Source: Pelagibius litoralis (GTDB taxonomy: Bacteria > Pseudomonadota > Alphaproteobacteria > Kiloniellales > DSM-21159). Taken from it: a stretch of DNA of 32,221 bases. The position numbers were made by a program, and so were the translations under genes. The notes below the pieces were generated by a model. It searched no databases. It was not told the DNA's origin and saw only the letters and a list, made by a program, of their open reading frames with translations. Below, in pieces: positions 2,257-30,601 of this stretch. The stretch lies in contig JARFRB010000013.1 in the NCBI GenBank assembly GCA_029287455.1, forward strand, positions 1 through 32,221. The letters run 5' to 3'. Every line of letters starts with the position of its first letter. Within the stretch, counting starts at the first letter, position 1.

Positions 2257-2454
2257 GCGATACCCCGATTAGGCCGCTGACCCCAAAAGTCTAGCTCCGA
2301 AAGTCATGGCGTGTCTCTTTATTTCGAGAGGAACGCTAAAGAATACTCTGCCAAAGTCTTCGTATAGATTAATTCGGATTAAATTTAATTGCCATGGATG
2401 AAGATAATTTCCGACTGTTATTATGCCAATTCTCTTAATTTAGTGAGGTTGGAA

Positions 2455-3996
2455 ATGCCTGGGAACCCAGTAAAAACGCTTTGCTTAGCGCTCGATTCCA
2501 TGGAGCCGCGGCTTTTGGAGGAATGGTGCGCCCAGGGCTTGCTTCCCAATCTCGACCGATTGTTCAAAAGCAGCGTCACTGCGCCGGTCGTCACCCCGCG
2601 CGGTTTGGGCAATAGCGTATTTTGGTCGTGCTTCTTCACCTGCAGCAATCCGGCCAAGAATAGCCAATACTATTTTCGGCAAATCGAACCGGGCAGCTAC
2701 ACAATCTCGCCGTTTCTCGAGGACAAGCACTATCTCCGCCCGCCGTTCTGGAGCGCCTTCGACAAGGCCGGCCTGCGGGTCGCGGTGATCGACCTGGTGC
2801 GCGCGCCCTTGGTGCCCGACCTTGGTGGAATCCAGGTGGTCGACTGGCTCTCTCATGACATCACGGGCGTGCCCCGCAGTTGGCCACCGAACGCGATCGA
2901 CGAGATCCACGAGAATTTCGGAACGGACCCCTTCGAAGGGAGCGCCGACGACAGCTTCAACGAGTCCACCGACATGGCCCTGTACCTGGACGACTACATG
3001 CGGCGGATCGAGGCGAAGACGGAGATGAGCCTTGCCTACATGAAACAGGGCAATTGGGATCTCTTCATCACCACCTACAGCGACCCCCACGACGTGGGGC
3101 ACAACTGCTGGCACCTGCACGACCCGTCGCACCCCTGGCACGACGCGAAAATCGCCGAGCGGATTGGCGACCCGGTTAAGCAGGTTTACATGGCGCTGGA
3201 TGCCGCGGTGGGCCGCCTGATCGAAGCCGCCGGCGACGACGCGACGATCATGTTCCTGACAGGTCCCGGCATGGGCCCGAACTACTCGGCCAACAACATG
3301 CTCGAGAAAATCCTGCTCCACTTGGAAGATCCTGGCGAGTTCAAGCGCTCCGCAAAGCTGCTGGCCCTCCAGCCCTACTACCGCAAGCTGGTACCGGACG
3401 CACTACGCAAGCGCCTGAGAAACGTCACTTTCTCTGTTCAAGACCACCTGGCGGCGACCGAAAGGGGCCGCCGCCGCTGCTTCATGATTCCGCACAACGA
3501 CAACAGCGGCGCGATCCGGATCAATCTTGTGGGGCGCGAGCCTCACGGTACCGTCCGTCCGGGCGAGGAGTTTGACAAGTACTGCGACGAGCTAACCGAG
3601 CAGCTTCTCGATCTAGTCAATTTGGAGACCGGCGGCCCCGTGGTGGACGAGGTTGTCCGGGTGGCCGAGCATTGCCAGGGTGAGAACTTGGACTACTTGC
3701 CCGATCTGCTCGTGGTTTGGAACCGGGACGCCTACATCAACGCGGTGACCTCGCCGCGCACGGGCGACATTCACGCCGACGTCCACTTGATGCGCTCCGG
3801 CGATCATACCCCCAATGGCATCTTCGCGGTCTCTTCGCCCGGCCTCGAGCCCAAGCGGATCAACGAGAAAATTTCGCCAATGGATGTCGGATCCACCGTG
3901 ACGTCTTGGTTTGGTATGTCCCTTCCCGATGCGGACGGTTCGCCGATTGCATCTCCAGTGACACCGGTCAAGGCGCGGGAAAATCTCAGCGCCTAG
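2455..3996 (+). CDS. Alkaline-phosphatase-superfamily protein (phosphohydrolase/phosphomutase-like) with an altered metal site
   Basis: 513 residues from ATG 2455, chosen over the upstream in-frame ATG at 2389 because a GAGG stands before it and the first beta-strand (KTLCLALDSMEP) begins at once. It resembles predicted AP-superfamily phosphohydrolases/phosphomutases: Asp14 in the first strand, a nucleophile-loop region GNSVFWS (53-59) followed by NPAKNSQYYF, a D210-P-H212-x3-H216 motif followed by WH, and a C-terminal GDH (His451). The segment that normally reads S-D-H-G-M-G-P-N reads T-G-P-G-M-G-P-N (269-276), so the Asp-His metal ligands appear replaced by Gly270-Pro271. No signal peptide is seen, so it is probably cytoplasmic. 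The amidotransferase gene starts 22 bp downstream, indicating an operon. The substrate is unknown; phosphotransfer on a glycan or lipid intermediate is only a guess, and activity is doubtful. Confidence 0.75.
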   Translation: MPGNPVKTLCLALDSMEPRLLEEWCAQGLLPNLDRLFKSSVTAPVVTPRGLGNSVFWSCFFTCSNPAKNSQYYFRQIEPGSYTISPFLEDKHYLRPPFWSAFDKAGLRVAVIDLVRAPLVPDLGGIQVVDWLSHDITGVPRSWPPNAIDEIHENFGTDPFEGSADDSFNESTDMALYLDDYMRRIEAKTEMSLAYMKQGNWDLFITTYSDPHDVGHNCWHLHDPSHPWHDAKIAERIGDPVKQVYMALDAAVGRLIEAAGDDATIMFLTGPGMGPNYSANNMLEKILLHLEDPGEFKRSAKLLALQPYYRKLVPDALRKRLRNVTFSVQDHLAATERGRRRCFMIPHNDNSGAIRINLVGREPHGTVRPGEEFDKYCDELTEQLLDLVNLETGGPVVDEVVRVAEHCQGENLDYLPDLLVVWNRDAYINAVTSPRTGDIHADVHLMRSGDHTPNGIFAVSSPGLEPKRINEKISPMDVGSTVTSWFGMSLPDADGSPIASPVTPVKARENLSA

Positions 3997-4018: not shown

Positions 4019-5968
4019 ATGTCGGCGATTGCAGGGGCGATTTCCTTCGACCCTTCTCGGTTCGTTGCAAGTGAACACCACTTGGCCGCGATGCTGGAAA
4101 CCATGCGGCACCGGGGCCCAGCGGGCTCGGGCAAATGGATCGATAGCTCCGGCCGTGTCAGCATCGGCCAGAGGCGCCGGATTGCATCCACCACCGACCG
4201 CCAACCCGTGGGTTTCCGGAACGAAACCCTTTGGTTGGCCATGGACGGTTCGATTTTCAATCGAAAAGAGCTGCGCGAAGCGCTGGAGCTTGCCGGCCAC
4301 AACGGCTTGGGCGAAAACGCATGCGATGCTGAATTGGCGGTGCGCGCATTCGATACTTGGGGTATCGACTGCCTAGAGCGCTTCAACGGCACCTTCGCCA
4401 TTGCGATTTGGGATGGCCGCGAAAAGGCCCTATGGCTGGCGCGCGACCGGATCGGTGTGAAGCCGATCTACTACAGCGCGCATAACGGGCGGCTCACCTT
4501 CGCTTCGGAGATAAAGGCCCTGCTGGCGGACCCAGATCAGGCCCGCGCCGTCTGCGAGGAGGCCCTCTATCACTACCTCTCTTTCAACGTTACGCCCGCG
4601 CCCCGCACCATGTTCGAGGGCATCAAGAAGCTGGCCGGCGGCGTTTGCCTGAGAGTGGGGGCGGACGGCTCGATCCGCGAGCACCGGTACTGGGATGTCT
4701 GGGACCACACCTCGCCTGTCACCGGTCTGCCGGACGAGGAACTGCTCGATATGATCCTTGAGGATCTGGAGCGCTGCACGGCGCTGCAATCCTCCGGCGA
4801 GGAGCGGCTGGGCATGTTCTTGTCGTCGGGCCTCGACTCGAACTTGGGTGCGGCTCTACTCGCCAAACATGTCCCCGCGCCGCTTGAAACCTTCACCTAT
4901 GCGTTTCAGGTCGACTATTCCCCCTATCGACATGAAGGCGACGTTGTCCGCGAGGCCGTGCGAGACCGCGGCTTCAAAAACCACATTTATGCCCTGTCCC
5001 ACGAACAGCTTGGCCGCAGCCTACCCGATGTCGTCTACTACGCCGACGAACCGATCTCCGACCCGATACTGGTGTCGTATCACCACTTGGCGAAGTTGGC
5101 ACAGGCCCAAGGGATCGACACCACCCACCATTTCCTGGGATCCGACGAGCTATTCATGGGCAAGCCGGACATGGCGCGGCTCATTCGGCTACAAAACTTG
5201 ATCGGCCCGCCGCTTCCCAGCTTCATCGCGAGGATCGGGCAGTTCGCGCTAAGCCTCGCCGGCCGCTCGGAGAGCTTCCCCTATGATCGCCTCAGGCGCG
5301 CGGCGCGCGGGGAGCCGGTGATTTGGTCCGCCAACGAGATGTTCAACGAGGCCCAGAAAATGCGCCTGATTTCCCCCAGGCTGCGCCGACGCTTCGCCGA
5401 CTTCTACTCCTTCGAGGCGGTCGAGGCGACCCACAAGCGGTTCCTGGAAAAAGCCTGGGAAACGTCGAACCTGCATTGGATGACCTACGCCTGCCTGCAC
5501 ATCCTGACGCCCGAGCATCAGATGATGCGCAGCGACAAGATGGGCATGTCGGCAAGCCACGAGATCCGCGCGCCAATGCTGGATCATAAGTTCGTGGAAC
5601 TCGCGCTCAGCCTGCCCGCCAAGGTTCATATCCGAAAAGGCCGAACCAAGCGGATCATCGAAGACATCGCAGCGCGGATCGGTGCGGACACCTATGTCGA
5701 GCGCAGCTACGCCAACACCGGCTTCCCCTTCCCCTGGTTGTTCGGTGAGTTGGGTGAGTTCGCCCGCTCGGAGCTGGATGCCTTCTGCCAGATCACGGAT
5801 TTCTTCGATCGCGCGGAAGTCTTGAACCTGGTCGACACCATGCGGCAGACAAAGGACTACCATTTGGCCCGCCAAATGTGGTGCCTACTCACCTTCGCGA
5901 CCTGGTGGAACGGATTTATCGGCCAGCCGGCCGGCGCGAACCGCCAGAGTTTGGCCGCGAGCGCTTAG
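4019..5968 (+). CDS. Asparagine-synthetase-like ATP-dependent amide ligase lacking the glutaminase Cys
   Basis: 649 residues with the two-domain layout of class-II asparagine synthetases. The C-terminal synthetase half is intact: PP-loop SSGLDS (about 268-273), GSDELF (about 374-379) and a later RSDKMGMSASHEIRAPMLD segment. The N-terminal glutaminase half is degenerate. The protein begins MSAIAGAI where active enzymes begin MCGIxG, so the nucleophilic Cys is Ser. The glutamine-binding N-G-E-x-[YF]-N motif reads D76-G-S78-I-F-N81, and HRGPD reads HRGPA. Asp103 (DAEL) and the Arg near 54 remain. In characterised families, loss of this Cys occurs in beta-lactam synthetases and lasso-peptide cyclases, which adenylate a carboxylate and couple it to an amine other than glutamine-derived ammonia. 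Ammonia-dependent Asn synthesis is the alternative. It is probably co-transcribed with the AP-like gene upstream; the SDR gene converges 12 bp downstream. Confidence 0.85.
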   Translation: MSAIAGAISFDPSRFVASEHHLAAMLETMRHRGPAGSGKWIDSSGRVSIGQRRRIASTTDRQPVGFRNETLWLAMDGSIFNRKELREALELAGHNGLGENACDAELAVRAFDTWGIDCLERFNGTFAIAIWDGREKALWLARDRIGVKPIYYSAHNGRLTFASEIKALLADPDQARAVCEEALYHYLSFNVTPAPRTMFEGIKKLAGGVCLRVGADGSIREHRYWDVWDHTSPVTGLPDEELLDMILEDLERCTALQSSGEERLGMFLSSGLDSNLGAALLAKHVPAPLETFTYAFQVDYSPYRHEGDVVREAVRDRGFKNHIYALSHEQLGRSLPDVVYYADEPISDPILVSYHHLAKLAQAQGIDTTHHFLGSDELFMGKPDMARLIRLQNLIGPPLPSFIARIGQFALSLAGRSESFPYDRLRRAARGEPVIWSANEMFNEAQKMRLISPRLRRRFADFYSFEAVEATHKRFLEKAWETSNLHWMTYACLHILTPEHQMMRSDKMGMSASHEIRAPMLDHKFVELALSLPAKVHIRKGRTKRIIEDIAARIGADTYVERSYANTGFPFPWLFGELGEFARSELDAFCQITDFFDRAEVLNLVDTMRQTKDYHLARQMWCLLTFATWWNGFIGQPAGANRQSLAASA

Positions 5969-6889: not shown

Positions 6890-8245
6890 CTATTCCGCCG
6901 CGACCTCTGGGGCAAGGCCCAGCCCAGGCTCCCCGTCCCCGGCTTCGAAGCCGGGCTGGCCCTCCAGGGCGGCGGGCAAAGGGCCGCCGGTCGCCCAATC
7001 CAGCAAGGCGGCACTGTGCACCACCGGTACCTCGGTTGCCCCGGCGATCTGGGTCAAACATCCGATGTTGCCGCTGGCGATGGCCTGAGGCCGGGTCCGC
7101 TCGAGGTTCGAGACCTTGCGGTCGCGCAGCCGGGTGGCAAGCTCGGGCTGCAAAAGGTTGTAGGTGCCGGCCGATCCGCAGCACAAATGCCCTTCCAGAG
7201 GCTCTGCAACCTGGAACCCAGCCGCCTCCAGCAGGGCTTTCGGCTGCTTTCGGATTTGCTGCCCGTGCTGCATTGAGCAGGCGGAGTGATAGGTAAGCCG
7301 CTGCCCTGTGGCACGCGCAGGAGCCCTTAAGCCAAGATCGTGCAGGAACTCCGTGACGTCCTGGGTGAGGCCGGCAATCCGGCTGGCCTTTTCCGCATAG
7401 GCGGGATCTTCGCGCAGCATGAAGCCATAATCCTTAACCGTGGTCCCGCAGCCGGAGGCGTTGATGATCACGGCATCCAGGCCTTCGCCCTCGGCTTCGC
7501 GGATCCAGGCATCCACATTGCGCCGCGCCGCGCTCAAGGCAGGCGCTTCCTGGCCCATGTGGTGGACCAGCGCGCCGCAACAGCCGCCGCCCTTCGCCAC
7601 CACTACCTCCACGCCGTGGCGGGTCAGCAGGCGGATGGTGGCTTCGTTGATCTCGGGCGCCAGCACTTGCTGGGCGCAGCCGGTCATCAGCGCGACCCGG
7701 GCACGGCGCGCGCCCTCGGCGGGAAAGGTCTGCGGGCGATCCATCGGCGAGGGTGTGGGCAAGGTCTTCGGCGCCATGGCCAGCATGCCCTTCAGGCGCC
7801 CCGGCATGTGCTTGGCGAACGGCCGGGCCAGGCCCGCACCGATCAAGGCCAGCCGGAACACGAGTGGCCGTGGCAGAACCTCCGCCAATAGCCTTCTCAG
7901 CAGACGTTCCGGCAGGGGGCGCCGATAGGTCTCTTCGATATGACGGCGGCCATGGTCCACCAAGTGCATGTAATGCACGCCCGAAGGACAGGTCGTCATA
8001 CAAGACAGGCAGGATAAGCAGCGGTCGATGTGCTTGACCACTTTCGGGCTCGCGGCCCGGTCATTCTCCAGCATGTCCTTGATGAGGTAAATTCGCCCGC
8101 GCGGGCTATCGAGTTCGTCGCCCAGCAGGACGAAGGTCGGGCAGGTAGCGGTGCAGAATCCGCAATGCACGCAGGCCCTCAGGATCTTTTCTGCTTCCCG
8201 GGTATCCGGATCGGCGAGTTGGGCCAGGGTAAAGTTCGTCTGCAT
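6890..8245 (-). CDS. glcF: Glycolate oxidase iron-sulfur subunit
   Basis: 451 residues, matching GlcF. The N-terminal half holds two ferredoxin-type 4Fe-4S motifs: CVHCGFCTATCP (about 25-36) and CLSCLSCMTTCP (about 76-87). The C-terminal half has two CCG-type modules (GGGCCGAL and HLCCGSAGTY), typical of heterodisulfide-reductase-like electron-transfer subunits. In glycolate oxidase it passes electrons from the GlcD/GlcE flavin subunits towards the membrane quinone pool during oxidation of glycolate to glyoxylate. It is third in a glcD-glcE-glcF run with an 18-bp gap to glcE, and GAGG precedes the start. The C-terminal 30 residues are low-complexity (rich in Gly, Pro, Ala and Glu) and may not be conserved. 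Confidence 0.95.
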   Translation of the reverse strand: MQTNFTLAQLADPDTREAEKILRACVHCGFCTATCPTFVLLGDELDSPRGRIYLIKDMLENDRAASPKVVKHIDRCLSCLSCMTTCPSGVHYMHLVDHGRRHIEETYRRPLPERLLRRLLAEVLPRPLVFRLALIGAGLARPFAKHMPGRLKGMLAMAPKTLPTPSPMDRPQTFPAEGARRARVALMTGCAQQVLAPEINEATIRLLTRHGVEVVVAKGGGCCGALVHHMGQEAPALSAARRNVDAWIREAEGEGLDAVIINASGCGTTVKDYGFMLREDPAYAEKASRIAGLTQDVTEFLHDLGLRAPARATGQRLTYHSACSMQHGQQIRKQPKALLEAAGFQVAEPLEGHLCCGSAGTYNLLQPELATRLRDRKVSNLERTRPQAIASGNIGCLTQIAGATEVPVVHSAALLDWATGGPLPAALEGQPGFEAGDGEPGLGLAPEVAAE

Positions 8246-8263
8246 CGCGCGCCTCGATCCTCT

Positions 8264-9487
8264 TCAAACGCCGGAATACATGCGGCCAGGATTCAGGATG
8301 CGCCGGGGATCGAAGCTGTCCTTGACCCGAGCCGTCAGCGCGGCCAAGGGCTCCGGCTGGGGGTGGAAGACGGAAATCTGGCGGCGCAACGCTTCCGGCG
8401 CGCGCAGCAGGGTCGCATGCCCCCCCACCTTCGCAACGGCCCCGCGCAGTTCATCGGCCCAGCCGCCCTCGCCCGCCGGCATGGACAGCAGGATCAAGCC
8501 CCCGCCCCAATCCAGCAAGTAGCGCGCTTCGACTCGCGCCGTGATCGCGGCCACTACCTCGGGCCCATGGGTTGGGGCGACGGATACCTTCCACACGACC
8601 CGGTCCGCGGGCTCGACCAGATAGGTGACATCCGCGATCTCCCGCCACAAAGCCGCTGTATTCTTGCTGTGCAGCTCCTCGCTCTGCCCAAGATCCTTCA
8701 ACTCACCGCGCAAGGCCTCGAGCCGGGCTTCGACCGAGGGCCCGTGTCCTTCCAAGCGCAGGGCGGTGACCGCGCCACCGGCTCCGGCAATGTAGGAAAC
8801 CCCCGATCCCTTCGCGATGTCCGGCGGCAAGTGGGCCGCGCCGGAAATTTCATGGGCGGAGCCCAGGGCACGGCTCATCGCGGCCACCGCGGCCCGGTCA
8901 TCAAGTCCGAAGAGCAGGAGCGTGCGCGCCTTCTCCGCTGCGGGCAAGACCTTGAGCGTCACCTCCGTGAGGGCGGCCAGTGTGCCGAAAGAGCCGGTCA
9001 CGAGCTTCGAGAGATCGTATCCCGTGACATTCTTGACCACACGCCCGCCGGATTTGAAAACCTCGCCCCGCCCCGAAACCGCCGTGAAGCCCAAGAGATG
9101 GTCGCGCGCGGCACCGGCCTTTATCCGCCGGGGTCCAGCGAGATTGCAGGCCACCAGGCCGCCGATCGTCCCCTCTCCGGCCGGTCCGCCGAACAGCGGC
9201 CCTAAATCCCCCGGCTCGAAGGCTAGTTCCTGGCGGTTCTCTGCGAGCGCGGCCCGGATCTCGGAGAGCGGCGTCCCGGCGCCTGCGGTCATGACGAGCT
9301 CGGCCGGCTCATACAAGGTGATTCCCTTCAAATCGGAGAGGTCGAGCCCGTTTGCAGTCTGTATCGGGCGGCCGAGACCTCTCTTGCTGCCGGTTCCGAT
9401 CACCTCTAGCGGAGCTTCCTCGCCGGCGGCCCAGGTGAGCAATTCCGCTGTCTGTTCGGCGCTGGTGGGCTTGAACGTCTGGCTCAT
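8264..9487 (-). CDS. glcE: Glycolate oxidase FAD-binding subunit GlcE
   Basis: 407 residues from the ATG at 9487 (MSQTFKPTS). The longer open frame to 9565 runs into glcD and was rejected; GAGGG precedes this ATG by about 8 bp. It shows the PCMH-type FAD-binding fold: a GTGSKRGLGRP loop, LEPGDLGPLFG-like segment (FEPGDLGPLFG), GEGTIGGLVACNLAGPRR and KNVTGYDLSKLVTGSFGTL, and ends with the FDPRRILNPGRM tail shared by FAD-linked oxidases. GlcE is the smaller flavin-domain subunit that works with GlcD and GlcF in glycolate oxidase. It is spaced 10 bp from glcD, consistent with translational coupling. Confidence 0.94.
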   Translation of the reverse strand: MSQTFKPTSAEQTAELLTWAAGEEAPLEVIGTGSKRGLGRPIQTANGLDLSDLKGITLYEPAELVMTAGAGTPLSEIRAALAENRQELAFEPGDLGPLFGGPAGEGTIGGLVACNLAGPRRIKAGAARDHLLGFTAVSGRGEVFKSGGRVVKNVTGYDLSKLVTGSFGTLAALTEVTLKVLPAAEKARTLLLFGLDDRAAVAAMSRALGSAHEISGAAHLPPDIAKGSGVSYIAGAGGAVTALRLEGHGPSVEARLEALRGELKDLGQSEELHSKNTAALWREIADVTYLVEPADRVVWKVSVAPTHGPEVVAAITARVEARYLLDWGGGLILLSMPAGEGGWADELRGAVAKVGGHATLLRAPEALRRQISVFHPQPEPLAALTARVKDSFDPRRILNPGRMYSGV

Positions 9488-9497
9488 CGCCGAGCCC

Positions 9498-10985
9498 TCA
9501 GAACCTCGGCAGGTCCGGGAAGGGCATCTGGCCGCGGTGGATATGCATCCGCCCCAGTTCCGCACAGCGGTGCAGCTGCGGGAAAACCTTGCCGGGATTG
9601 AGCAGCGCGTTGGGATCGAAAGCGCACTTCACCCGCTGCTGCTGCTTCAAATCGATCTCGTTGAACATCTCGCCCATGAGATCGCGCTTTTCGACGCCCA
9701 CACCGTGCTCGCCAGTCAAGACGCCGCCAACCTCCACGCAGAGCTTCAGGATATCGGCGCCGAACTCCTCCGCCCGCTCGAGCTCCCCCGGCTGGTTGGC
9801 GTCGTACATGATCAGGGGGTGCAGATTGCCGTCGCCTGCATGGAACACATTGGCCACCCCCAGGCCATACTGTTCGCTCATCTCCCGCATCCGTTTCAGC
9901 ACCAAAGGAAGCTGCTTGCGCGGGATCGTACCGTCCATGCAGTAGTAGTCGGGTGAAATCCGCCCGACCGCCGGGAAGGCCGCCTTCCGGCCGGCCCAGA
10001 AGCGGTTACGCTCCTCTTCATCTTGGGACACCCGCTCGTAGGTCGCGCCATGCTCGCGGGCGATAGCGACCACCTGCTCGATGAGGTAATCCACCTCGGC
10101 CGCGGGCCCATCCAATTCGACGATCAGCAAGGCCTCCACGTCCCGGGGATAGCCTGCCTGCACGAAGTCGTCGGAGGCATGGATCGCCGGCCGATCCATC
10201 ATCTCCATGCCGCCGGGAATGATGCCGGCTCCGATCACCGCCGCGACGCAGTCGCCCCCCTGCTCGCTGGTGGGAAAGCCCAGAAGCAGAGCCCGAGCGG
10301 TGGCCGGCTTTTGCAGAATGCGCACCGTGACCTCGGTGACCACGCCCAAGAGCCCTTCCGAACCAGTCATCAGACCCAGAAGGTCATAGCCTTCACTGTC
10401 CAGATGCTTGCCGCCGATTCTGAGGATCGTGCCGTCGATCAGCACCATCTCCAGCCCAAGAAGGTTGTTGGTGGTCAGGCCATACTTCAGGCAGTGCACG
10501 CCGCCCGAGTTCTCCGCGACATTGCCTCCGATCGAGCATGCGATCTGGCTTGAGGGATCCGGCGCGTAATAGAATCCTTCGTGTTCCACCGCCTTGGTGA
10601 TGCCCAGATTGGTCACGCCAGGCTGAACCACCGCGCAGCGGTTCTCAAAATCAATCTCCAGGATGCGGTTGAACTTGCCAAGGCCCAGAATGATCCCATC
10701 GGCCAAGGGCAAGGCGCCGCCCGATAGCGAGGTTCCAGCGCCCCGCGGCACCACCTTGATGCCGTTCTCATTGCAATATGCAAGGACCCGGCTCACCTGC
10801 TCGACCGTTTCCGGCAAAACAACGATCAGCGGCGGCTGCCTGTAGGCCGTGAGCCCATCGGACTCATAGGCGCGTAATTCGTCCTCGTCATGAATTACGC
10901 CTTCACCGGGAACGATTCGGCCAAGATCGGCGACGATCTGGCTCTTGCGGATGACTGTCCCCTCGTCGGGCTCGGGCATCTGCAT
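9498..10985 (-). CDS. glcD: Glycolate oxidase FAD-linked subunit GlcD
   Basis: 495 residues. The FAD-linked oxidase domain has the pyrophosphate-binding segment VVPRGAGTSLSGGALP and SIGGNVAENSGGVHCLKYG, a VTEVTVRI strand, and C-terminal signature elements HAGDGNLHP and GEHGVGVEKR with FDPNALLNPGKVFP at the end. It is the catalytic subunit that oxidises glycolate (often also D-lactate) with FAD. It is the first gene of glcDEF, with a GGGGAGG Shine-Dalgarno about 10 bp before the ATG. Upstream is a strong sigma70-like promoter overlapping a palindromic operator, so expression is probably controlled by a GntR/FadR-family repressor responding to a 2-hydroxy acid. No such regulator gene lies in this window. 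Confidence 0.95.
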   Translation of the reverse strand: MQMPEPDEGTVIRKSQIVADLGRIVPGEGVIHDEDELRAYESDGLTAYRQPPLIVVLPETVEQVSRVLAYCNENGIKVVPRGAGTSLSGGALPLADGIILGLGKFNRILEIDFENRCAVVQPGVTNLGITKAVEHEGFYYAPDPSSQIACSIGGNVAENSGGVHCLKYGLTTNNLLGLEMVLIDGTILRIGGKHLDSEGYDLLGLMTGSEGLLGVVTEVTVRILQKPATARALLLGFPTSEQGGDCVAAVIGAGIIPGGMEMMDRPAIHASDDFVQAGYPRDVEALLIVELDGPAAEVDYLIEQVVAIAREHGATYERVSQDEEERNRFWAGRKAAFPAVGRISPDYYCMDGTIPRKQLPLVLKRMREMSEQYGLGVANVFHAGDGNLHPLIMYDANQPGELERAEEFGADILKLCVEVGGVLTGEHGVGVEKRDLMGEMFNEIDLKQQQRVKCAFDPNALLNPGKVFPQLHRCAELGRMHIHRGQMPFPDLPRF

Positions 10986-11309: not shown

Positions 11310-11417
11310 CGCCTGATCCTCGGGGTTCGGCCCGCTTGGTCTTTAGCCAAGCAGCCGGAAAAACGAGCACGGACCATACAGATGGGCCATTTGGCTGTCA
11401 ACGCGCGAAGCGCCACT

Positions 11418-12383
11418 CTACTTCTGCGCCAAACCGTTGATCCGGCAGACCCGCAAAGCCCCGCTGTCCAAGGCTTTGCCTAGCAGGCGCCAGCGCTCTA
11501 CCTCAGCCGCCAGCACCGCCGCGCGCTGTCCTTGCCAATGGTCGACGGGCGAGCCTTCAAGGAAGGTGGCCCAGCCTTGGTTTGCGAGGCCACGGTAGCG
11601 CTCCGTCACGTCCTCGTTGATCCGCACTTCGATTTGCATTTTCTCAAGCAAGGTGGCGTAACCCCGCGCGGTGGAAGGCGCCTCGATCACCCCCTAGGCC
11701 GCCATCCAGGCGGCGATGGGGGGAGTGATGGACGCTGCCTCGCCCCCTTCCCCGGCTAGCACGAAATCCGTGAGCGCAAGCTGCCCCTTGGGTTTTAGAG
11801 CCGGCAGCAGGCGGCGCAAGAAAGCCTCTCGCCCTGGCAACGCATAAAGGCGCTCACGCGAGATCATATGGTCAAAGCCCCGCTGCGGCGGTTCGTAGTC
11901 CGCCGGATCGACCGCCAAGATCTCGGCTTTCTTCGTTAAGCCCTGCATTTCGGAAATCTTCGCGCCGGCAACGCGGAGGTAGGGATCGCTCTCCAAGCCC
12001 GTAACCCAAGCGCCGAATTCTTCGGCAAGCGTCCTCGCGGCCCCGCCCAGGCCGCAGCCAAGCTCAAGCACGCTCATGCTTTCGTTCAAGCCGAAGGGAT
12101 TTACCGCTTCGCGCACGCAGACGGCGCCGCCCGGCACCGAGAAACCCTCGCCCCAAATCTGCTGGAATAGCTCGATCCGATCAGTTTCCCAACCCGGCTT
12201 GCCGGGCGCGTAGCGCACCTCGTGTCCGGCCGCCGCGAGCTGCGGCGGGCGCGCGCTTTCGGAAGACGCGGCTTTCGAGCGAACCGTGACGTCCTGGCCA
12301 TTCCACCAGGCCTTCAGGCGCAGACTCAAGGGCAAACGCCGCGCCGAACCTCCTCGCCCATCCAACCGCTCAGCGGCCGCCAT
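11418..12383 (-). pseudogene. SAM-dependent methyltransferase interrupted by an in-frame TAG
   Basis: The 5' part (12383-11697) encodes a class-I methyltransferase: SAM motif I VLELGCGLGGAARTL, an acidic second strand (VTGLESD), a HMISRERLYALPGREAFL segment and LALTDFVLAG. A TAG (11696-11694) stops it at PPIAAWMAA. The same frame continues at once (GVIEAPSTARGYATLLEKM...) with a stretch typical of the C-terminal substrate domain of these enzymes (IEVRINEDVTERYRG) to a stop at 11418. The two parts therefore look like one gene of about 320 codons broken by an amber codon. A GTG at 11690 could restart translation. The start was set at ATG 12383, with GAGG about 6 bp upstream, not the GTG at 12398. 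Whether the TAG is real, read through or a sequence error cannot be decided here. Confidence 0.75.
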
Positions 12384-12464
12384 CGCAAACCTCAACACTA
12401 CTCAAAGCTGAGTTTGGCGATAATTAAATCCCGAAATGGATGAAATATGGATTAAAGCCGCGGC

Positions 12465-12917
12465 CTACTTGAAAAACACCACCTCGGTGCGGCTGTTTGG
12501 GGTCACCAGGTCGACGCAATCTTGCCGGCTGGCCTCGTCGTCGGCGCAGGGGGCAACATCGTTCAGGAGGATGCGCGCCATGTCTTCGCATCTTAGATCC
12601 GCGAGATCGAAGAGCTTCACCACGGACTTGCCTGCCCGCAGCGGCGAGGAATCCACGGCGATCCGACGCATGATCACGCCATCGGCCCCGAACAGGATCA
12701 AATCAAGGCGAAAGTCGACAAACTGCTTGTCGGTCTCATTCTCGAACAGCAGGTAGGCCCGGCAGGCTTGATCCACCTGTTCAAGCTTGTTGAGTTCAAT
12801 GGCGATCCGCCCCCGCTCGCTCGCGCCCTGTTGGGCTATCGCCTTGCCCGGCACGCCGAAGCTCGCCAGGATCCCCATCGCTGCGACCGCCCCAACAACA
12901 CGACCCATTATTCGCAT
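12465..12917 (-). CDS. Conserved secreted protein of unknown function
   Basis: 150 residues. The N-terminus is a Sec-type signal peptide (MRIMGRVVGAVAAMGILASFG, cleavage probably after AIA-Q). The mature part is a compact domain: RIAIELNKLEQVDQACRAYLLFEN, then FVDFRLDLILFGADGVIMRRIAVD, KSVVKLFDLADLRCEDMARILLNDV, a Cys pair (CADD and QDCVDLV) and the ending TEVVFFK. Four Cys in the mature part suggest disulfides in the periplasm. I recall similar proteins across alphaproteobacteria, often labelled Tat-pathway signal proteins, but no RR motif is present and no function is known to me. It is divergent from the mlaC-like gene across a 350-bp gap. Confidence 0.75.
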   Translation of the reverse strand: MRIMGRVVGAVAAMGILASFGVPGKAIAQQGASERGRIAIELNKLEQVDQACRAYLLFENETDKQFVDFRLDLILFGADGVIMRRIAVDSSPLRAGKSVVKLFDLADLRCEDMARILLNDVAPCADDEASRQDCVDLVTPNSRTEVVFFK

Positions 12918-13267
12918 CGCCTCGCCCTTTCCCGTGGTTCTTATCCGTTATCGCTTCAGGCACCTTTTCCAAAGGTGTCCGCAGCTTACCGGTTCCATCG
13001 GGAAATTCCAGCACGAGGCGCCCTGTCCGCCGAGGCGCGCCCCGATGGAATTCGGCCTTCAGGCTAGCGAGAGAAGTTTGCGACGCCAGAACGCTCTAAT
13101 GTTAGGCTCCAGCAGCGTCCTGGCGGCGCTGGATAACGCGGATGTCATTTTTTCGGACCATGCGAGGCATGGTTTTTGCGTTCGTGAGGTGCTATTTGCA
13201 TGCCAGGTTTGGCCAAGCGCAACCTTGTGCGGCTTTCACCAGGCCACGTCAATCAGGGGTAGAATTC
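12918..13267. other. Divergent intergenic region with two inverted repeats
   Basis: No gene is supported here. It separates the leftward secreted-protein gene from the rightward mlaC-like gene and should hold both promoters. Two inverted repeats are visible: CACCTTT-TCC-AAAGGTG (12961-12977), and arms TTCCATCGGG (12993-13002) and CCCGATGGAA (13041-13050) 38 bp apart. The inner part of the second is also GC-rich. These could be operator or RNA structure; nothing ties them to a known family. Confidence 0.5.
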
Positions 13268-16029: not shown

Positions 16030-17059
16030 TCACGTTGTCTCACCGACGAGCAAGGATGTCGGCAGAACGATCTCCTTCTCCGCGAATGACTCCGTGTCGA
16101 GGCGCGCGATCAAGGCTTCGCCCGCCCGATAGCCGAGGCTATACGCCGGTGAATGAATGGTGGTCAGGGTCGGAACGCTGAAAGGCCAAGAGTCGAAGGC
16201 GTTGAAGCCGGTGATTCGGACATCGTCCGGCACACCGATGCCTTTATGCGTGAGGTACCGCAGGGCCGCGTAGGCAGTCTGTTCGTCACCCGCCATGATC
16301 GCGTCCGGCAGCGGCGCCGTGTCGAGGTAGTCGGAAAGCGCGGCCTGGACGGCTTCGCAGCCCTGTTTGGGCGCCGTCAGAACCTCGAAAACCTCGCCGC
16401 CATCGTTCTCGCGAAAAGCGGCGCGCGCCCTCCATGCGCTCTTGCAGGCCGTGACAATTTGAATTTGGCATCAGGAACAAGATACGCCGAGCCCCTTTCG
16501 AAAGCAGCAAGCGCGCGAGTTGCCGCCCGCCCCCGCGATCGTCCTTGCGCAGGACGCAGACATCCTTGCCAGCTCTGCCAAAGGGCCCCTGCAGGCTGAT
16601 CACCTGTTGGTCGATGGAAAGGAGCGAGGCTTCAATCTCCGCGTCGTGGGGTGACCGCAAGGTTTTCAGCACGCAAATCCCGTCGGTTTGCAGGCTTTGT
16701 ACGATCTGACACGAGCCGAAGTTCTCCGGCGCCACGCTCTGCAAGACAAAGGAATATCCCTGTTCGTTGGCGCTGGCGCAGATGCCGGAGGTCAGATTGG
16801 CCACGAAAGGGCGGGATAAGGCGTTGGGGTTCTCGTCGATCAGAATCATGCCGATCGTGAAGTGCCGGGAGAGTTTCAGTTTCCGGGCCGCGGTATCCGG
16901 CCGATAGTTTAACTCGTCCACGAGTTCGCTGATCCGCGCGCGCGTCGCGGGGCTAGCGGATTTCAGCCGCCCGTTCACCACGTTGGACACGGTCATCACC
17001 GACACGCCGGCGCGCGCCGCCACATCCTTCAGGGTCGTACGGGAACGCTTGTTGCTCAT
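16030..17059 (-). pseudogene. LacI-family transcriptional regulator, frameshifted
   Basis: The N-terminus (ATG 17059, AGGA 9 bp upstream) has a LacI-type helix-turn-helix TLKDVAARAGVSVMTVSNVVNG, the hinge NYRPDTAARKL, and then the sugar-binding core (IGMILIDENP, QGYSFVLQS, RRILFLMPNS). After QERMEGAR near 16430 the frame goes wrong; the frame shifted by one base carries on with RAAFRENDGGEVFEVLTAPKQG, then PDAIMAGDEQTAYAALRYL and VRITGFNAFDSW to a stop at 16030. Removing one base in the GGG/GCGCGC stretch (about 16415-16432) gives a normal LacI protein of about 340 residues. The regulator is thus either inactive or the sequence has an indel error. Its target operon is not obvious; no neighbouring sugar transporter is seen. 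Confidence 0.85.
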
Positions 17060-17264
17060 GATCACGCTTCCTTGCCGCAATCCGGCCGCAAGCCGGAATC
17101 GTCTTGATAGCGGCCTCGGCGCAGTTGTCGGTGCATTCGAGAGGAACTGTCGATTTCATACTTGCGAAGCGCCTGCGAAATCGTGCTTCGAAACTACGAT
17201 ACCGATCGGGAGGCTGAATCATCCCCGCCAGGGGACACGACTGGCGCGATGGCCGAACCGGCGG

Positions 17265-19614: not shown

Positions 19615-20209
19615 ATGCATGTAATCTTGGCGACTGTTGCATTCTTTCTTCTATCCCCATTTTGCTGGCCGTCCGAAGCGGGGGCGCAGTCGGAGTGGGA
19701 GGTCTGTGCAGGCAACGCCAGGGCGGCCGAGCGGCTTCTGGTCGCTACCCGAGTCCTTGCTGCTCGCCATCCAGCGGGTGGAGGCCGGGGGGTGGAACGC
19801 GGACTTGAGCAGCGTCGTTGCCTGGCCCTGGACGATAATGGCGGAGAACAAGGGGAGATTCTTGCCTAGCAAGCGGGCCGCGGTCCACGAAGTGGCGCGC
19901 TTGCGCGCACGCGGGGTCAGGAACATCGACGTGGGCTGTATGCAAATCAATCTGCACTACCACGGCGGTGCCTTCGAAAGCGTCGAGCAGGCCCTAGACC
20001 CCGCCTTCAACGTTGCGTACGGCGCGAAGTTCCTGACCGGCCTGCAAGACCGTCACGGCGACTGGCCAACCGCGATTGCCCACTATCATTCCGCGACCCC
20101 TGGGCTTGGCGGAAAATACTTTGCGAAAGTCGAAGCCGCCTGGCGCGCGGAACGCGGTCCTAGGCCCCGAGAGGGCACCTTCCGGCCCGGCGCGGCCGCA
20201 CAATTCTGA
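19615..20209 (+). pseudogene. Lytic transglycosylase (SLT domain), frameshifted
   Basis: The first frame from ATG 19615 gives a signal peptide and mature start (MHVILATVAFFLLSPFCW...GAQSEWEVCAGNARAAER). Near 19731-19748 the coding frame jumps by one base to LPESLLLAIQRVEAGGWN and continues to 20209. The second part is a soluble lytic transglycosylase domain: catalytic Glu in AIQRVEAGG, VAWPWTIMAENKGRFLPSK, DVGCMQINLHYHG, NVAYGAKFLTGL and DWPTAIAHYHSATPGLGGKYFAKVEAAW. Such enzymes cleave peptidoglycan glycan strands in the periplasm, forming 1,6-anhydromuramyl ends. Deleting one base in the CGGCTTCTGGTCGC area would restore one frame of about 198 codons. As it stands, the signal peptide and catalytic domain are in different frames. 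Confidence 0.8.
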
Positions 20210-20251
20210 ACCGCGCAGTCCGCCTCGAAGGCTTGAGAGCATTATCTTGGC

Positions 20252-21100
20252 TTAACCGAACACCACCTGGCCCTGCATTGCGATATCACCGGCGGGATTG
20301 ACAACCCAAAGGTCCGCGCTCTCACCGAGCGGGCGGCCGGCCACGGAAAACGGCGCGGTATCGAAGATGGGGCTCAAAGCGCGGAAGCTGAAGCCGGCGA
20401 TGCGCCGGGCCGGCTGTGCCCGCCGGGCGAGATCCACCATCAGCGTGGCTAGCAACGGCCCGTGGACGATCAGGCCCGGATATCCCTCGACCTCGGTCAC
20501 GTAAGGATGGTCGTAGTGGATACGGTGGCCGTTGAAGGTCAGCGCCGAGTACCGGAATAGCAGCACAGGATCAGGCGAAATTTCCCGGCGCCACGGCAGA
20601 TCGGCCGGTGCGGGCCGGCCGGCGGGCGCCGCCTCTCCCGGCTGGGGCGCGGCGCGGTAAACGATATCGTGCTCCTCCGTCAGGGCCAGACCTGCGGCAC
20701 CAGAGATCTCGTGCTTCACAGTCACGAAGGCCAGGGGTCCGCTGCGCCCCTCCTTGGCCACCACATCCAGGATCGTGGAAACGCGCCGCGCCGGCGCGCC
20801 AAGGGGCAAGCCTTCGTGCCAGGTCACCCGGCTGCCCGCCCACATGCGCCTGGGAAGCTCGATGGGCGGCAAGAAGGCGCCGCGCGCGCCGTGCCCGTCC
20901 CGGCCGACGCCGGACAAGGGAATAGCCTGCCAGAAATAGCACCAGTGCCATAGAGGCGGTAAAAAATCCCCAGCGGCGAATTCCGGGTCCTCGCTTTCCA
21001 GGGTGGCCTGCAGCGCGTTCGCCCGCGCGACGTCCATCGCGTCCTCGGCTTCGGCGGTTCGGCCGATCCACCCGCTCCAGTCCTGTCCGCGCGAAGTCAT
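20252..21100 (-). CDS. MaoC-like/FAS1-type dehydratase (mesaconyl-C4-CoA hydratase-like)
   Basis: 282 residues from ATG 21100, with AGGGG about 6 bp upstream; the open frame reaching 21298 has no homologous-looking extension. The protein has an N-terminal hot-dog domain (PPLWHWCYFWQ, then GAFLPPIELPRRMWAGSRVTWHEGLPLG) and a C-terminal MaoC-like half with RYSALTFNGHRIHYDHPYVTEVEGYPGLIVHGPLLATLM. The latter is the hydratase motif with the conserved N-x-H-x-I-H-Y-D and HG. This layout matches mesaconyl-C4-CoA hydratase/HTD2-type proteins, which hydrate mesaconyl- or itaconyl-CoA-like enoyl thioesters. No CoA-transferase or lyase gene lies alongside, so the substrate is open. It converges with the transglycosylase gene and is divergent from the small gene at 21315. 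Confidence 0.85.
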   Translation of the reverse strand: MTSRGQDWSGWIGRTAEAEDAMDVARANALQATLESEDPEFAAGDFLPPLWHWCYFWQAIPLSGVGRDGHGARGAFLPPIELPRRMWAGSRVTWHEGLPLGAPARRVSTILDVVAKEGRSGPLAFVTVKHEISGAAGLALTEEHDIVYRAAPQPGEAAPAGRPAPADLPWRREISPDPVLLFRYSALTFNGHRIHYDHPYVTEVEGYPGLIVHGPLLATLMVDLARRAQPARRIAGFSFRALSPIFDTAPFSVAGRPLGESADLWVVNPAGDIAMQGQVVFG

Positions 21101-21314
21101 GGTAGCCCCTGAAAACTCCCGCGAGGGAGCATAGATCGGAAGTCCGGCAATTGAAATCGTCGGACGGCAACCGGCTCCGCAAGACTTTCCCTTGGCGCCA
21201 CAGTCGTGGCACGCTTCCTGCGCCCAAAGCCGCGCGGGCGGGCAAGCGGCCGGGCCGTCGGCAGCGATCCCACAGGGGTCCAACCCGGACCGACACACCG
21301 ATTGGAGGATTCAC

Positions 21315-21653
21315 GTGGCCATTCGATACACCAGCCCGCATCACAGCGAAGACGACCCGGGTGGGCTGATCCATGACAGCCTCTCGTTGGGTGAAGAGTT
21401 CACCGGCCCGGCCGAGGACGTTTTGCTGGCCTGGACCCTGCGATTGGATTCAGGCATCGATCCCGCCGCCGCGGCACGGCGCATTCTGGCGAAGCATGAG
21501 GCAAGCTCCACCGGAACTTCGCGGCCGGAAGGCAAGCAGACGCAGCGCCTGCTCGAACTGCTCCGGCAAACCGCGGCGACCACAGCGACGACCGGAGATC
21601 GGCGCCGCGGCGGCTGGCGCGGCCGCGCACGCCCGTCAAGCAGCGAGAACTAA
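21315..21653 (+). CDS. Small conserved protein of unknown function
   Basis: 112 residues from GTG 21315, selected because GGAGG (21304-21308) lies 6 bp upstream; the longer frame from 21192 runs through the divergent promoter region. The N-terminal half is acidic and well structured (AIRYTSPHHSEDDPGGLIHDSLSLGEEF, then GPAEDVLLAWTLRLDSGIDPAAAARRILAKHE). The rest is a helix TQRLLELLRQTA and a basic, Arg- and Gly-rich tail that may be disordered or bind nucleic acid. No membrane segment or known motif is seen. I recall similar short proteins in Rhodospirillales but no assigned role. It is 27 bp upstream of the SDR gene and probably shares its mRNA. Confidence 0.7.
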   Translation: MAIRYTSPHHSEDDPGGLIHDSLSLGEEFTGPAEDVLLAWTLRLDSGIDPAAAARRILAKHEASSTGTSRPEGKQTQRLLELLRQTAATTATTGDRRRGGWRGRARPSSSEN

Positions 21654-21680
21654 GCAGCAATCCCTGGAGGGCGGACCCGC

Positions 21681-22529
21681 ATGACAAAGAGGCCTGAAGG
21701 TGGCGAGATCCACGGCATGGCGCGAAAGCGCGCGGCCGGACACACAATCTTGGTCACAGGCGCGGCCGGAGGGATCGGTGGAGGCATCGCCCGGCGGCTG
21801 ATTGCGGACGGATGGCAAGTCTTCGCCAGTGACGTCGACCTGGACGGCCTTGCCCGTCTGGCCCAAGAGGTCGGCGCGGAGGACCGCCTGACATACGGCG
21901 CGCTGGACGTTCGCGAAGGTGAGCAAGCAGAGCGGCTGGCCGAGACTCTGCGCGAGAAGGGTGCCGGCCTGGCCGGTCTCGTGAACGCGGCCGGGCTGCT
22001 TCAAGATCTCTTCCCCTTGCTGGACATGGACCCCGCCCTGGAACGGAAGATCTGGGATGTAAATTATTTTGGATCAGTTACTTGCACTAAGACCTTCGCG
22101 CCTCTGATGATCGAATGCGGGGGTGGAGCCATCGTCAACATCACCTCGATCAACGAGGAACGGCCCATGCCGCTGCACGCCTACGCGCCCTCGAAGGTCG
22201 CCTTGGGGGCGCTGACCAAGCTGAGCGCAGGCGAGTTCGGGCCCGTTGGCCTGCGCGTCAACGCAATCGCCCCGGGCTTCACGCTGACACCGGTCATGAA
22301 AGAGAAAATCCGCACCGGCAAACGAGATGTCGCGGCGATCGAAGCCGCCACAGCCATGGGCCGCCTGATTGAGGTGGAGGAAATTGCGTCTGTCGCAAGC
22401 TTTCTGCTCTCCGACGATGCGCGCGCAGTCACCGGGGCAAGCATCCCGGTCGACGCCGGCTGGCTCGCCACCGCTCACTGGATGAACTTTCGCGGACTCG
22501 CCGAAGGGGGCCAAACCGAGACGGGCTAG
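21681..22529 (+). CDS. SDR-family oxidoreductase
   Basis: 282 residues. After a 20-residue lead, the Rossmann motif TGAAGGIGGGIA (about 26-37) and the acidic NAD-preference residue region (FASDVD) are clear. NAAG, the Ser strand IVNITSINE, catalytic Y-A-P-S-K and NAIAPGFTLTPVM complete the classical SDR set; the C-terminus has ASFLLSDDARAVTGASIPVDAGW. The Asp after the second strand suggests NAD rather than NADP. A GGAGG lies about 10 bp before the start. It follows the small GTG gene by 27 bp, and its end overlaps the convergent ABM gene by 4 bp (22526-22529). The ending resembles 3-oxoacyl-ACP reductase/sugar-dehydrogenase-like members, but the substrate is unknown. Confidence 0.88.
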   Translation: MTKRPEGGEIHGMARKRAAGHTILVTGAAGGIGGGIARRLIADGWQVFASDVDLDGLARLAQEVGAEDRLTYGALDVREGEQAERLAETLREKGAGLAGLVNAAGLLQDLFPLLDMDPALERKIWDVNYFGSVTCTKTFAPLMIECGGGAIVNITSINEERPMPLHAYAPSKVALGALTKLSAGEFGPVGLRVNAIAPGFTLTPVMKEKIRTGKRDVAAIEAATAMGRLIEVEEIASVASFLLSDDARAVTGASIPVDAGWLATAHWMNFRGLAEGGQTETG

Positions 22530-23004: not shown

Positions 23005-23814
23005 GTGCGACGAAGCATCACAAGAGTTATTTCGCGGCGACTAGAAGGCCGGTGGACGAACTGTATCGTCTTAAGCGATTCGGGCGTGGGATATGTGCCG
23101 ACGCCGAAGATCGGCTGCTCGACGATCAAGAATGCCTTCTATGAGCTCGCCGAGGGCAAGCCCTTCGACAAGGGCGCGATGCGTCAATTGGGATACGAGG
23201 ATGTTCACGCCTACTTCTCCCAGGACGAGTACTTCCATCGGCTCGAAGACGTCCGGGGCTTGGCGAAGTCCTATCTTTTCTGCGTCGTCCGGGATCCGGT
23301 CAAGCGGCTGATCTCCTGCTACCGGGACCGGGTGGTGCTGCGCCAAGACCTGGGCAAGGAGAAGAAGACCGCCCCGATCCTCCGGGTTCTAGGGCTTCCC
23401 ATGGAACCGGACCTCAACACCTTCGCGCTCAATCTGCGCGCCTACATGTTCTCCAACTGGCTGATCCGGATCCACGCGCGAAATCAAACGGATTTCATCG
23501 GGACGGACTTAAACCGCTATGACCGGGTGTTCAAACTGGAGGAGATGGCGGGAGTCGAAACCATGCTGCGCGATTACACGGACCGCCCCTTCTCCTTTGG
23601 CCGGCTCAAGTCGGACGGACCGAAGATCGCGCTGTCGGAGCTGGAGGAGCCGGCTTTCGAACAGTTGCTGCGCCTCTATGCCAAGGACTACGAAACGCTC
23701 GCCCCATTCTATCAGAGAGAGGCGATTATCAGCGAGTACCGGACCGCCCGCGAGGGCCGCAAGGCCCCGTCGGCCTCGGCGGGTGTGCAACCGGCTTATG
23801 ACACACGGGCCTGA
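23005..23814 (+). CDS. Carbohydrate-type sulfotransferase (sulfotransferase family 2)
   Basis: 269 residues from GTG 23005; the Shine-Dalgarno is poor (a distant GAGG), so the start is uncertain. Two nucleotide-binding motifs of the membrane-associated carbohydrate sulfotransferase family are clear: the 5'-PSB segment VPTPKIGCSTIKNAFYEL (about 30-47) and the 3'-PB segment FCVVRDPVKRLISCYRDRV (about 93-111). The family transfers sulfate from PAPS to glycan hydroxyls. Unlike the eukaryotic relatives no membrane anchor is seen, so it would act in the cytoplasm on a lipid-linked or nucleotide-linked precursor. It starts the surface-polysaccharide locus, 126 bp before the first flippase, on the same strand. 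Confidence 0.8.
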   Translation: MRRSITRVISRRLEGRWTNCIVLSDSGVGYVPTPKIGCSTIKNAFYELAEGKPFDKGAMRQLGYEDVHAYFSQDEYFHRLEDVRGLAKSYLFCVVRDPVKRLISCYRDRVVLRQDLGKEKKTAPILRVLGLPMEPDLNTFALNLRAYMFSNWLIRIHARNQTDFIGTDLNRYDRVFKLEEMAGVETMLRDYTDRPFSFGRLKSDGPKIALSELEEPAFEQLLRLYAKDYETLAPFYQREAIISEYRTAREGRKAPSASAGVQPAYDTRA

Positions 23815-23940
23815 GGTCAGCGCCCTTCGCTATCCTCGACCGCGACGGCAAAGCCTGTGGATCCGGGTTCCAGGGGCCGGAGCATTCGACGTACCCCCTC
23901 GGTTAAGGTGCCTTCCTTCGCGCCGCTGCCGTAATTTGGC

Positions 23941-25287: not shown

Positions 25288-25348
25288 CCCGTCCGTCCGG
25301 AGAGCCACTCGCGAATTTCGTGATCGGCGCGGGCCGCGCGCCTAGTCG

Positions 25349-26350: not shown

Positions 26351-26522
26351 TTCCAATCCCATGGCGAAGACGATTTGCGAGCGATGGCGACGGGCGCCGA
26401 CTAGGCCGAATCCTGTCCGACGTCCCTGACTGACTATTCCTCAAGAAGCCCATGGCGGCGACGGCGCAAAGGAGTTAATTGCGACCGAGCGCTCGTCCAA
26501 GGGTCGGGGTGAGGGTCTGGAC

Positions 26523-27437: not shown

Positions 27438-27611
27438 TCCTCAAGATCCAGTCTTGCGAGGTTTCCTCGCCCAGCCCATTCGGCGGCGGCGCGGAGCCTA
27501 GCATAATAGCAGTACTATGGAGTGCAGATAATGGCGTGAGCGATGTGTAGCCGGGCACTCCCTCCCAACGCGGTCCTTCCCGCGACGGCAATCCGGCGAA
27601 GCCGAAGAGGT

Positions 27612-28859: not shown

Positions 28860-29127
28860 CGCATGGCTTCCCTTGGATCGAAGGCCGCCCGGGCACCCGC
28901 GGCTGTTCTCTACACGTAGGCAGTCAAAAAAATGCGGTCTAGCGCCCTTTCGAGGGTGACCGAAGGAGGGCGCTGCGGCGCGGGGCTCTAACTTGACTAT
29001 CCACTATGATTGCCTTTCTTCAGCCGTTGAACTGCTGGAAGGTTTGCCTCCGAAGGGTAGCTTTACGCGCTCCTGCCCCCGGACGCATTCTGGAGCCTGC
29101 GGGCAGAGAGGAAGAAAGGTGATTTCG

Positions 29128-30495: not shown

Positions 30496-30549
30496 GCGCA
30501 CAGGGCCGCAAGCTGCCAAAGTGTTACTTCCAGTGAGACCAACAAAAAT

Positions 30550-30573
30550 GGGCCGCTTCGGTTAGCTTGGCCC
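30550..30573. terminator. Weak hairpin between the VanZ-like gene and flippase 2
   Basis: GGGCC-GCT and AGC-TT-GGCCC arms form a stem with a 2-base bulge. The plus-strand tail (CTCTCTC) is poor, while the minus strand has TTTTT after the stem. It could attenuate rather than end transcription into flippase 2. Confidence 0.35.
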
Positions 30574-30601
30574 CTCTCTCACAATCCTCTGGGGCCTAGG
30601 C

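Follow-up and report, generated by a model that had tools for sequence, protein, structure and literature searches.

The AsnB-like gene and its surroundings

The window is one entire contig of 32,221 bases, belonging to a 3.6-Mb draft genome in 141 contigs. It carries a gene for an AsnB-fold protein, referred to below as the window protein, which is preceded on the same strand by a phosphodiesterase-like gene and by a gene for an FG-GAP repeat protein. The features are listed here in order, with residues in the numbering of the window protein unless AS-B numbers are indicated.

4-2238, + strand: FG-GAP repeat protein, upstream of the phosphodiesterase-like gene (Pfam)
2389-3996, + strand: type I phosphodiesterase/nucleotide pyrophosphatase-like protein, likely start ATG at 2455 (Pfam Phosphodiest, 56 bits); 22 bases upstream of the AsnB-like gene
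4019-5968, + strand: AsnB-fold protein of 649 aa with glutaminase and synthetase sites both altered (sequence, Pfam, alignment, predicted fold)
4022-4024, + strand: Ser2 codon TCG in place of the Cys nucleophile (sequence and alignment)
4244-4252, + strand: Asp76-Gly-Ser78 in place of Asn-Gly-Glu, Asp76 being common to all three Ser2 proteins (alignment)
4823-4840, + strand: PP-loop SSGLDS (269-274), second residue changed from Gly to Ser (alignment)
5129-5164, + strand: residues 371-382, HFLGSDELFMGK, in place of (S/V)GEGADELFxGY, with Gly347 to Phe, Glu348 to Leu and Tyr357 to Lys in AS-B numbers (alignment)
5708-5710, + strand: Tyr564 in place of the catalytic Lys, AS-B Lys449 (alignment)

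An in-frame TAA one codon 5' of the ATG at 4019 fixes the start codon of 4019-5968, since none can lie farther 5'; a GAGG ends six bases 5' of this ATG. The Ser2 codon TCG is two base changes away from a Cys codon, and Ser2 recurs in two relatives (L042 and L046, encoded by TCT and TCG), which makes a simple sequencing error unlikely. That the unusual motifs stem from sequencing or frame errors was likewise rejected, since five stretches of the gene read in both other forward frames held no hidden canonical motif, and G+C by codon position is steady along the whole gene, with a strong third-position pattern throughout. Given this intact frame and codon pattern, the window protein has probably been kept by selection. 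Among 98 related genomes, 385 of the class and 61 of the order, no relative was near enough to allow a dN/dS estimate: the 61 genomes of the order returned, at E 1e-75 or better, just the gene itself and one canonical 41% match (G050), and the orders of G150, which carries L046 (5 genomes), and of G067 (1 genome) returned their own copies only.

From 23 kb on, the window holds a weak flippase match, glycosyltransferases, an epimerase and a sulfotransferase, and the stretch 23005-31924 is probably a surface-polysaccharide locus. Within it lie a flippase-like protein with a weak Pfam match (23941-25287), a second one recognized by eye (30602-31924) and a LamG-domain protein (28993-30495). Elsewhere in the window, matches to GlcF, GlcE and GlcD of glycolate oxidase follow in series at 6890-10985, the GlcE and GlcD ORFs overlapping at 9498-9565, and a LacI-type regulator recognized by eye (16286-17080) has a C-terminal part that is seemingly out of frame, possibly because it is broken or misassembled.

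Residues of the glutaminase and synthetase halves

The family set was aligned with E. coli AsnB and positions were read in AS-B numbering. The comparison comprised 42 homologues, namely 36 Cys2 family members, two additional AsnB proteins encoded at the family loci, the two paralogues in this genome, and a pair of AsnB proteins adjacent to phosphodiesterase-like genes; E. coli AsnB, which likewise has Cys, and both Ser2 relatives were left out. All 42 share Cys1, Arg49, Asn74, Glu76, Asp98, Gly235, Gly347, Glu352 and Tyr357. Lys449 is found in 41 of 41 (one homologue is incomplete), and Glu348 in 38 of 42, among them all 35 full-length Cys2 family members.

The window protein begins M1-S2 and reads H31-R-G-P-A35, D76-G-S78, S269-S-G-L-D-S274 and G374-S-D-E-L-F379. 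The original prediction had picked out the Ser at position 2, the D-G-S at 76-78 in place of N-G-E and the HRGPA in place of HRGPD, and all three hold: with Cys in 42 of 42 homologues the Ser is not due to chance, and Asn and Glu are equally invariant at the second motif. At the five glutaminase places (Cys1, Arg49, Asn74, Glu76 and Asp98) the window protein has Ser, Arg, Asp, Ser and Asp, so that the counterparts of Arg49 and Asp98 are retained. The glutaminase site is thus not canonical, as had been proposed, and the protein, judged by its residues, is not a glutamine-dependent asparagine synthetase.

The ATP/PP-loop half had been described as kept. The SSGLDS and GSDELF motifs behind that description are present, but alignment with AsnB, which the original prediction had recommended, reveals that the synthetase half is altered as well as the glutaminase site. 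At positions 235, 347, 348, 352, 357 and 449 the window protein carries Ser, Phe, Leu, Glu, Lys and Tyr, with Gly235, Gly347, Glu348, Tyr357 and Lys449 replaced. The Glu348 counterpart is Leu373 and the Lys449 counterpart is Tyr564, and no Lys occurs within residues 545-580. The counterparts of PP-loop Asp238, Asp351, Glu352, Arg387 and Lys429 are still present, and some nucleotide chemistry is therefore conceivable. The two Ser2 relatives each lack Cys1, Arg49, Asn74, Glu76, Asp98, Glu352 and Tyr357, and both retain the PP-loop, Gly235, Glu348 and Lys449.

The weight of these replacements can be gauged from studied enzymes. PMC6748925 describes the human ASNS variants E364A and E364Q as inactive with ammonia and the Lys466 counterpart as essential in AS-B; human Glu364 and Lys466 were equated by motif with AS-B Glu348 and Lys449. 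In the nitrile synthetase PesC, according to PMC13060819, there is a Glu363-Tyr368 pair shared by five AS-like enzymes, E. coli AS among them, and Tyr368Phe is inactive while E363A is reduced. By its spacing, the pair would correspond to AS-B Glu352-Tyr357. If so, the Tyr of a PesC-type pair would be absent in all three Ser2 proteins, and the window protein additionally lacks two ATP-side residues. Beta-lactam synthetase uses another Tyr/Glu pair, and a substrate-side pair can therefore move; loss of Tyr357 alone is thus compatible with a ligase.

The change is not confined to the active sites. Among 90 columns that are invariant in the 35 Cys2 members, 27 are changed in the window protein, 19 in L042 and 25 in L046, while a leave-one-out control on the 35 Cys2 proteins gave a median of 0 changes and a maximum of 6, with at most one in the listed active-site set (a list without Glu348). 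Of the 65 invariant columns outside the active sites, 47, 55 and 50 are kept in the window protein, L042 and L046, respectively. All three Ser2 proteins differ in 29 of the 229 columns that are at least 80% conserved in the 35 Cys2 proteins, and in three of these 29 they have one common new residue: Ser2, Asp76 and Leu357 (window numbers). The common Ser2 and Asp76 fit a single ancestral glutaminase-site change that has been kept since; this is the chief argument for a repurposed site, and it is a suggestive one, drawn from three sequences.

The Ser2 clade and its phosphodiesterase-like neighbour

The genome encodes two other long AsnB-type proteins, both Met-Cys, and two weak partial matches just above the Pfam cut-off. 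Nine full-length relatives of the window protein, with 31-43% identity, were found in the 98 related genomes and 385 genomes of the class, and a scan of named genomes yielded 31 loci from many phyla; as that scan used just two peptide patterns, members may have been missed. The family comprises 39 loci after removal of the duplicates L057 (identical to L042) and L071 (identical to L046), with L054 and L070 nearly identical and L081 incomplete. Ser2 occurs in three of them: the window, L042 from the alphaproteobacterial MAG KW1-S21_141 and L046 from the alphaproteobacterial MAG IP29b_bin.177. The other 36 have Cys2, RGPD and NGE. A profile of the three proteins, run against 398 genomes of the phylum at E 1e-140, recovered the gene itself and three matches in two genomes, all Met-Cys and not counted in the 39 loci, so that Ser2 proteins number only three in what was searched.

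A careful tree, computed on 25 selected members of the family after the motif columns had been taken out, unites these three in a clade (96/86) whose sister is L052 (99/96), a canonical Cys2 protein from a Poribacteria MAG. Quick trees of 45 rows and of 38 rows without motif columns agree: the three Ser2 proteins group with support of 96 and 90, respectively, and the four including L052 with 97 and 95; the 45-row tree is a quick tree only, its careful search being incomplete. The end branches measure 1.87 changes per column for the window protein, 1.75 for L046, 0.72 for L042 and 0.44 for L052, and the two long ones place some risk on the topology. Divergence is unevenly spread over the two halves. 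The window protein is 38-41% identical to L042, L052 and L062 in the synthetase half and 51-53% in the N half (33 and 39% to L046), whereas L046 reverses this, with 36-39% in the N half and 46-50% in the synthetase half to the same three proteins. Pfam scores of the window protein are 160 bits for Asn_synthase against 292-293 in the canonical L052 and L062, and 110 against 152 for GATase_7. If the window protein is a pseudoenzyme, the clade offers a graded series: a Cys2 sister with the same neighbour, two copies that keep ATP-side residues and one with both sites altered.

The neighbour in question is the phosphodiesterase-like gene. An HMM search at E 1e-10 finds it in four of the 39 family loci, which are the three Ser2 loci and L052, three of these four proteins having served to build the model, and the homologues at L042, L046 and L052 are 42-51% identical to that of the window by BLAST. 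None was found in the flanks examined at the other 35 loci, several of these flanks being short. As the four loci make up one clade, they represent one association that has been kept and not four independent ones. Its arrangement varies: at L042 the gene adjoins the AsnB-like gene on the opposite strand, divergently; at L046 it lies about 3 kb away on the opposite strand; at L052 it is downstream on the same strand, the contig ending inside it. Only in the window and at L052 are the two genes co-directional and close. In 21 stretches around other members of the phosphodiesterase-like family, an AsnB-type ORF adjoins in three (L131 and L135, both Met-Cys, and L132) and is absent in 18, although one of the latter, a stretch of contig C36 in the genome of the window, has a canonical AsnB about 7 kb off, beyond its limits. 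On that contig (L119, L133) the Cys2 AsnB occupies 20114-22108 and the phosphodiesterase-like relative 11385-12941, and the surrounding ORFs resemble, by eye, a second polysaccharide cluster. Taken together, the loci hint weakly at a partnership of the AsnB-like and phosphodiesterase-like proteins. Among the matches listed in the open-licence literature, as covered by titles and the starts of abstracts, no paper describes an AsnB relative with altered catalytic residues that is paired with a phosphodiesterase-like gene.

The phosphodiesterase-like family itself (window 2389-3996, L042, L046, L113-L132 and L135) seems, by alignment, to have neither Ser nor Thr at the place that, judged by eye against the motifs of the known phosphodiesterase family, would hold the nucleophile. 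An HxxGH stretch is found in most of its rows, and GPGMG stands, by eye, at the presumed place of the DHG motif in the three partners of Ser2 proteins. The family is possibly a non-hydrolytic or one-metal variant. A structure model of the window member, built from four rows, has a mean pLDDT of 50.8 and is too poor for use.

Polysaccharide genes accompany both Ser2 relatives. L046 lies in a polysaccharide cluster with a GDP-mannose dehydratase, a bacterial sugar transferase, group 1 glycosyltransferases and an export protein, and at L042 a polysaccharide flippase-like protein and a glycosyltransferase adjoin the genes. This link is weaker in the window, where the polysaccharide genes are about 17 kb from the AsnB-like and phosphodiesterase-like genes. 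The FG-GAP protein of the window has no match in the compared stretches of the two Ser2 relatives or L052.

Interpretation and comparison with known systems

The window protein scores 294.2 bits against TIGR01536 (glutamine-hydrolysing asparagine synthase), above the cut-off of 267.1, and departs from this family in its residues at the N-terminal Cys (Ser2), at Asn74 and Glu76 (Asp76 and Ser78) and at Glu348 and Lys449 (Leu373 and Tyr564). Genome annotation would thus call a working enzyme although neither half keeps all its catalytic residues, and the label of glutamine-hydrolysing asparagine synthase that the automatic route assigns is therefore probably wrong. It falls below the cut-offs of other models, with 272.3 bits against 816.9 for TIGR03108 (XrtA/EPS amidotransferase, eps_aminotran_1) and 132 against 499 for asparagine synthase B. 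The lasso-peptide cyclase to which the protein had been likened fares no better by score (NF033535, 191.4 bits against 525), and a lasso-peptide or natural-product cluster was rejected on such scores and on the lack of a tailoring set in the Pfam matches of the 19 window ORFs scanned. P0001 gave a 296-bit match to one phage-library family of unknown function. The AlphaFold2 model of the window protein (30 rows) has a mean pLDDT of 90.1 and a pTM of 0.92, with less certain segments at 551-560 (mean 77), 561-570 around Tyr564 (mean 68) and 51-60 (mean 68). Its best fold matches are TsnB9 (Z 35.5 over 550 residues), AS-B (32.4), human ASNS (30.9), beta-lactam synthetase (29.5) and carbapenam synthetase (26.5). 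The fold is thus predicted to be retained over both domains, a prediction that is silent on activity.

By its residues, the window protein is probably not an ordinary amide-forming enzyme. The reading preferred here, tentatively and at somewhat short of an even chance, is that it is a pseudo-amidotransferase linked to surface-glycan assembly. Under this model, it would descend from a canonical group of AsnB-type amidotransferases of many phyla, with the WbpS type as its best-known likeness; enzymes of that type amidate the uronic acids of surface polysaccharides, giving uronamides. Within a small clade that has a divergent phosphodiesterase-like gene close by, the glutaminase nucleophile would have become Ser and the Asn of N-G-E Asp; the substrate-activating Tyr would have been lost in all three members, and in the window copy the ATP-side Glu and the catalytic Lys as well. 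Since the AsnB fold is retained, a role as partner or scaffold appears most likely, perhaps still with nucleotide or glycan binding, in making or decorating a surface polysaccharide and perhaps together with the phosphodiesterase-like protein. A bolder form of this proposal, in which the Ser2/Asp76 site of the AsnB fold and a seemingly nucleophile-less phosphodiesterase fold make up a two-protein module that modifies a surface glycan by neither glutamine-dependent amidation nor phosphoester hydrolysis, is speculative and has a slim chance of being right.

It had been suggested that the protein may be a new amide ligase, and such an enzyme would use free ammonia or another amine, having given up glutamine hydrolysis and adapted its ligase site, as beta-lactam synthetase has, to a new acid/amine pair. 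The predicted fold matches beta-lactam and carbapenam synthetases over 455-481 residues (Z 25.5-29.5), as it also does asparagine synthetases, and PesC accepts ammonia instead of glutamine, as reported in PMC13060819. The proposal is more tenable for L042 and L046, which keep the PP-loop, Glu348 and Lys449, albeit without Glu352 and Tyr357. For the window copy it is unlikely: the Glu348 and Lys449 counterparts are missing, residues 545-580 offer no substitute Lys, and Tyr357 is gone from all three Ser2 proteins. Work on a Campylobacter glucuronamide suggests amide formation with an amino alcohol as a possible model. Other Ntn hydrolases use Ser or Thr, and the Ser2 exposed after Met removal could, with Asp76, likewise replace the Cys, so that the N domain would hydrolyse or transfer another amide or ester and the C domain would be structural. 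Ser2 and Asp76 are indeed among the only three common new residues in the 29 differing columns, and the window protein is better conserved in its N half, where it keeps the Arg49 and Asp98 counterparts. Against this, L042 and L046 have lost both of the latter, the N half is the more diverged half of L046, and the changes from C to S and from N to D are conservative, perhaps inherited once, and known from three sequences; a Ser-type N-terminal-nucleophile hydrolase is accordingly judged improbable.

A decaying gene, not yet interrupted in a draft genome, would account for the long end branch (1.87 changes per column) and for the alteration of both active sites. The full-length frame with its third-position G+C pattern, the confident predicted fold (mean pLDDT 90.1) and the two further uninterrupted members of the clade speak against decay, which is judged quite doubtful. 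If the pseudo-amidotransferase reading is right, the clade would lend itself to studies of how chemistry is lost or altered in a two-site amidotransferase; if one site has been repurposed instead, a new activity in surface-glycan assembly would be at hand.

Among known systems, the polysaccharide amidotransferases WbpS, WbqG and PGN_1234 resemble the window protein in their similar length over both domains. Each of the 30 proteins in alignment A3 matches TIGR03108 with an E-value of at most 1e-20, this model has the best E-value of any in the set (3.9e-164), and surface-polysaccharide genes are near both Ser2 relatives. In Porphyromonas gingivalis, a glucuronamide was lost when WbpS (PGN_1234) was deleted, as reported in PMC7468200. 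The window protein differs from this type in falling below the TIGR03108 cut-off and in lacking the glutaminase nucleophile and the synthetase residues. AS-B (1ct9) and human ASNS (6gq3) share the fold over 473-478 residues (Z 30.9-32.4), but Cys1, Asn74, Glu76, Glu348, Tyr357 and Lys449 are all replaced in the window protein. The hydroxyamidotransferase TsnB9 (7ylz) is the top fold match, with 24% identity over 550 residues, and it retains Met-Cys-Gly and the Glu of the SGE motif, unlike the window protein. Beta-lactam synthetase (1m1z, Z 29.5 over 455 residues) and carbapenam synthetases have the AsnB fold as well (Z 25.5-29.5), a likeness that is not specific, as AsnB relatives give it too. 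Like the window protein, these synthetases have no Cys nucleophile. They are active ligases, however, and carry a Tyr at the position of Glu348 as well as a catalytic Lys, where the window protein has Leu373 and Tyr564.
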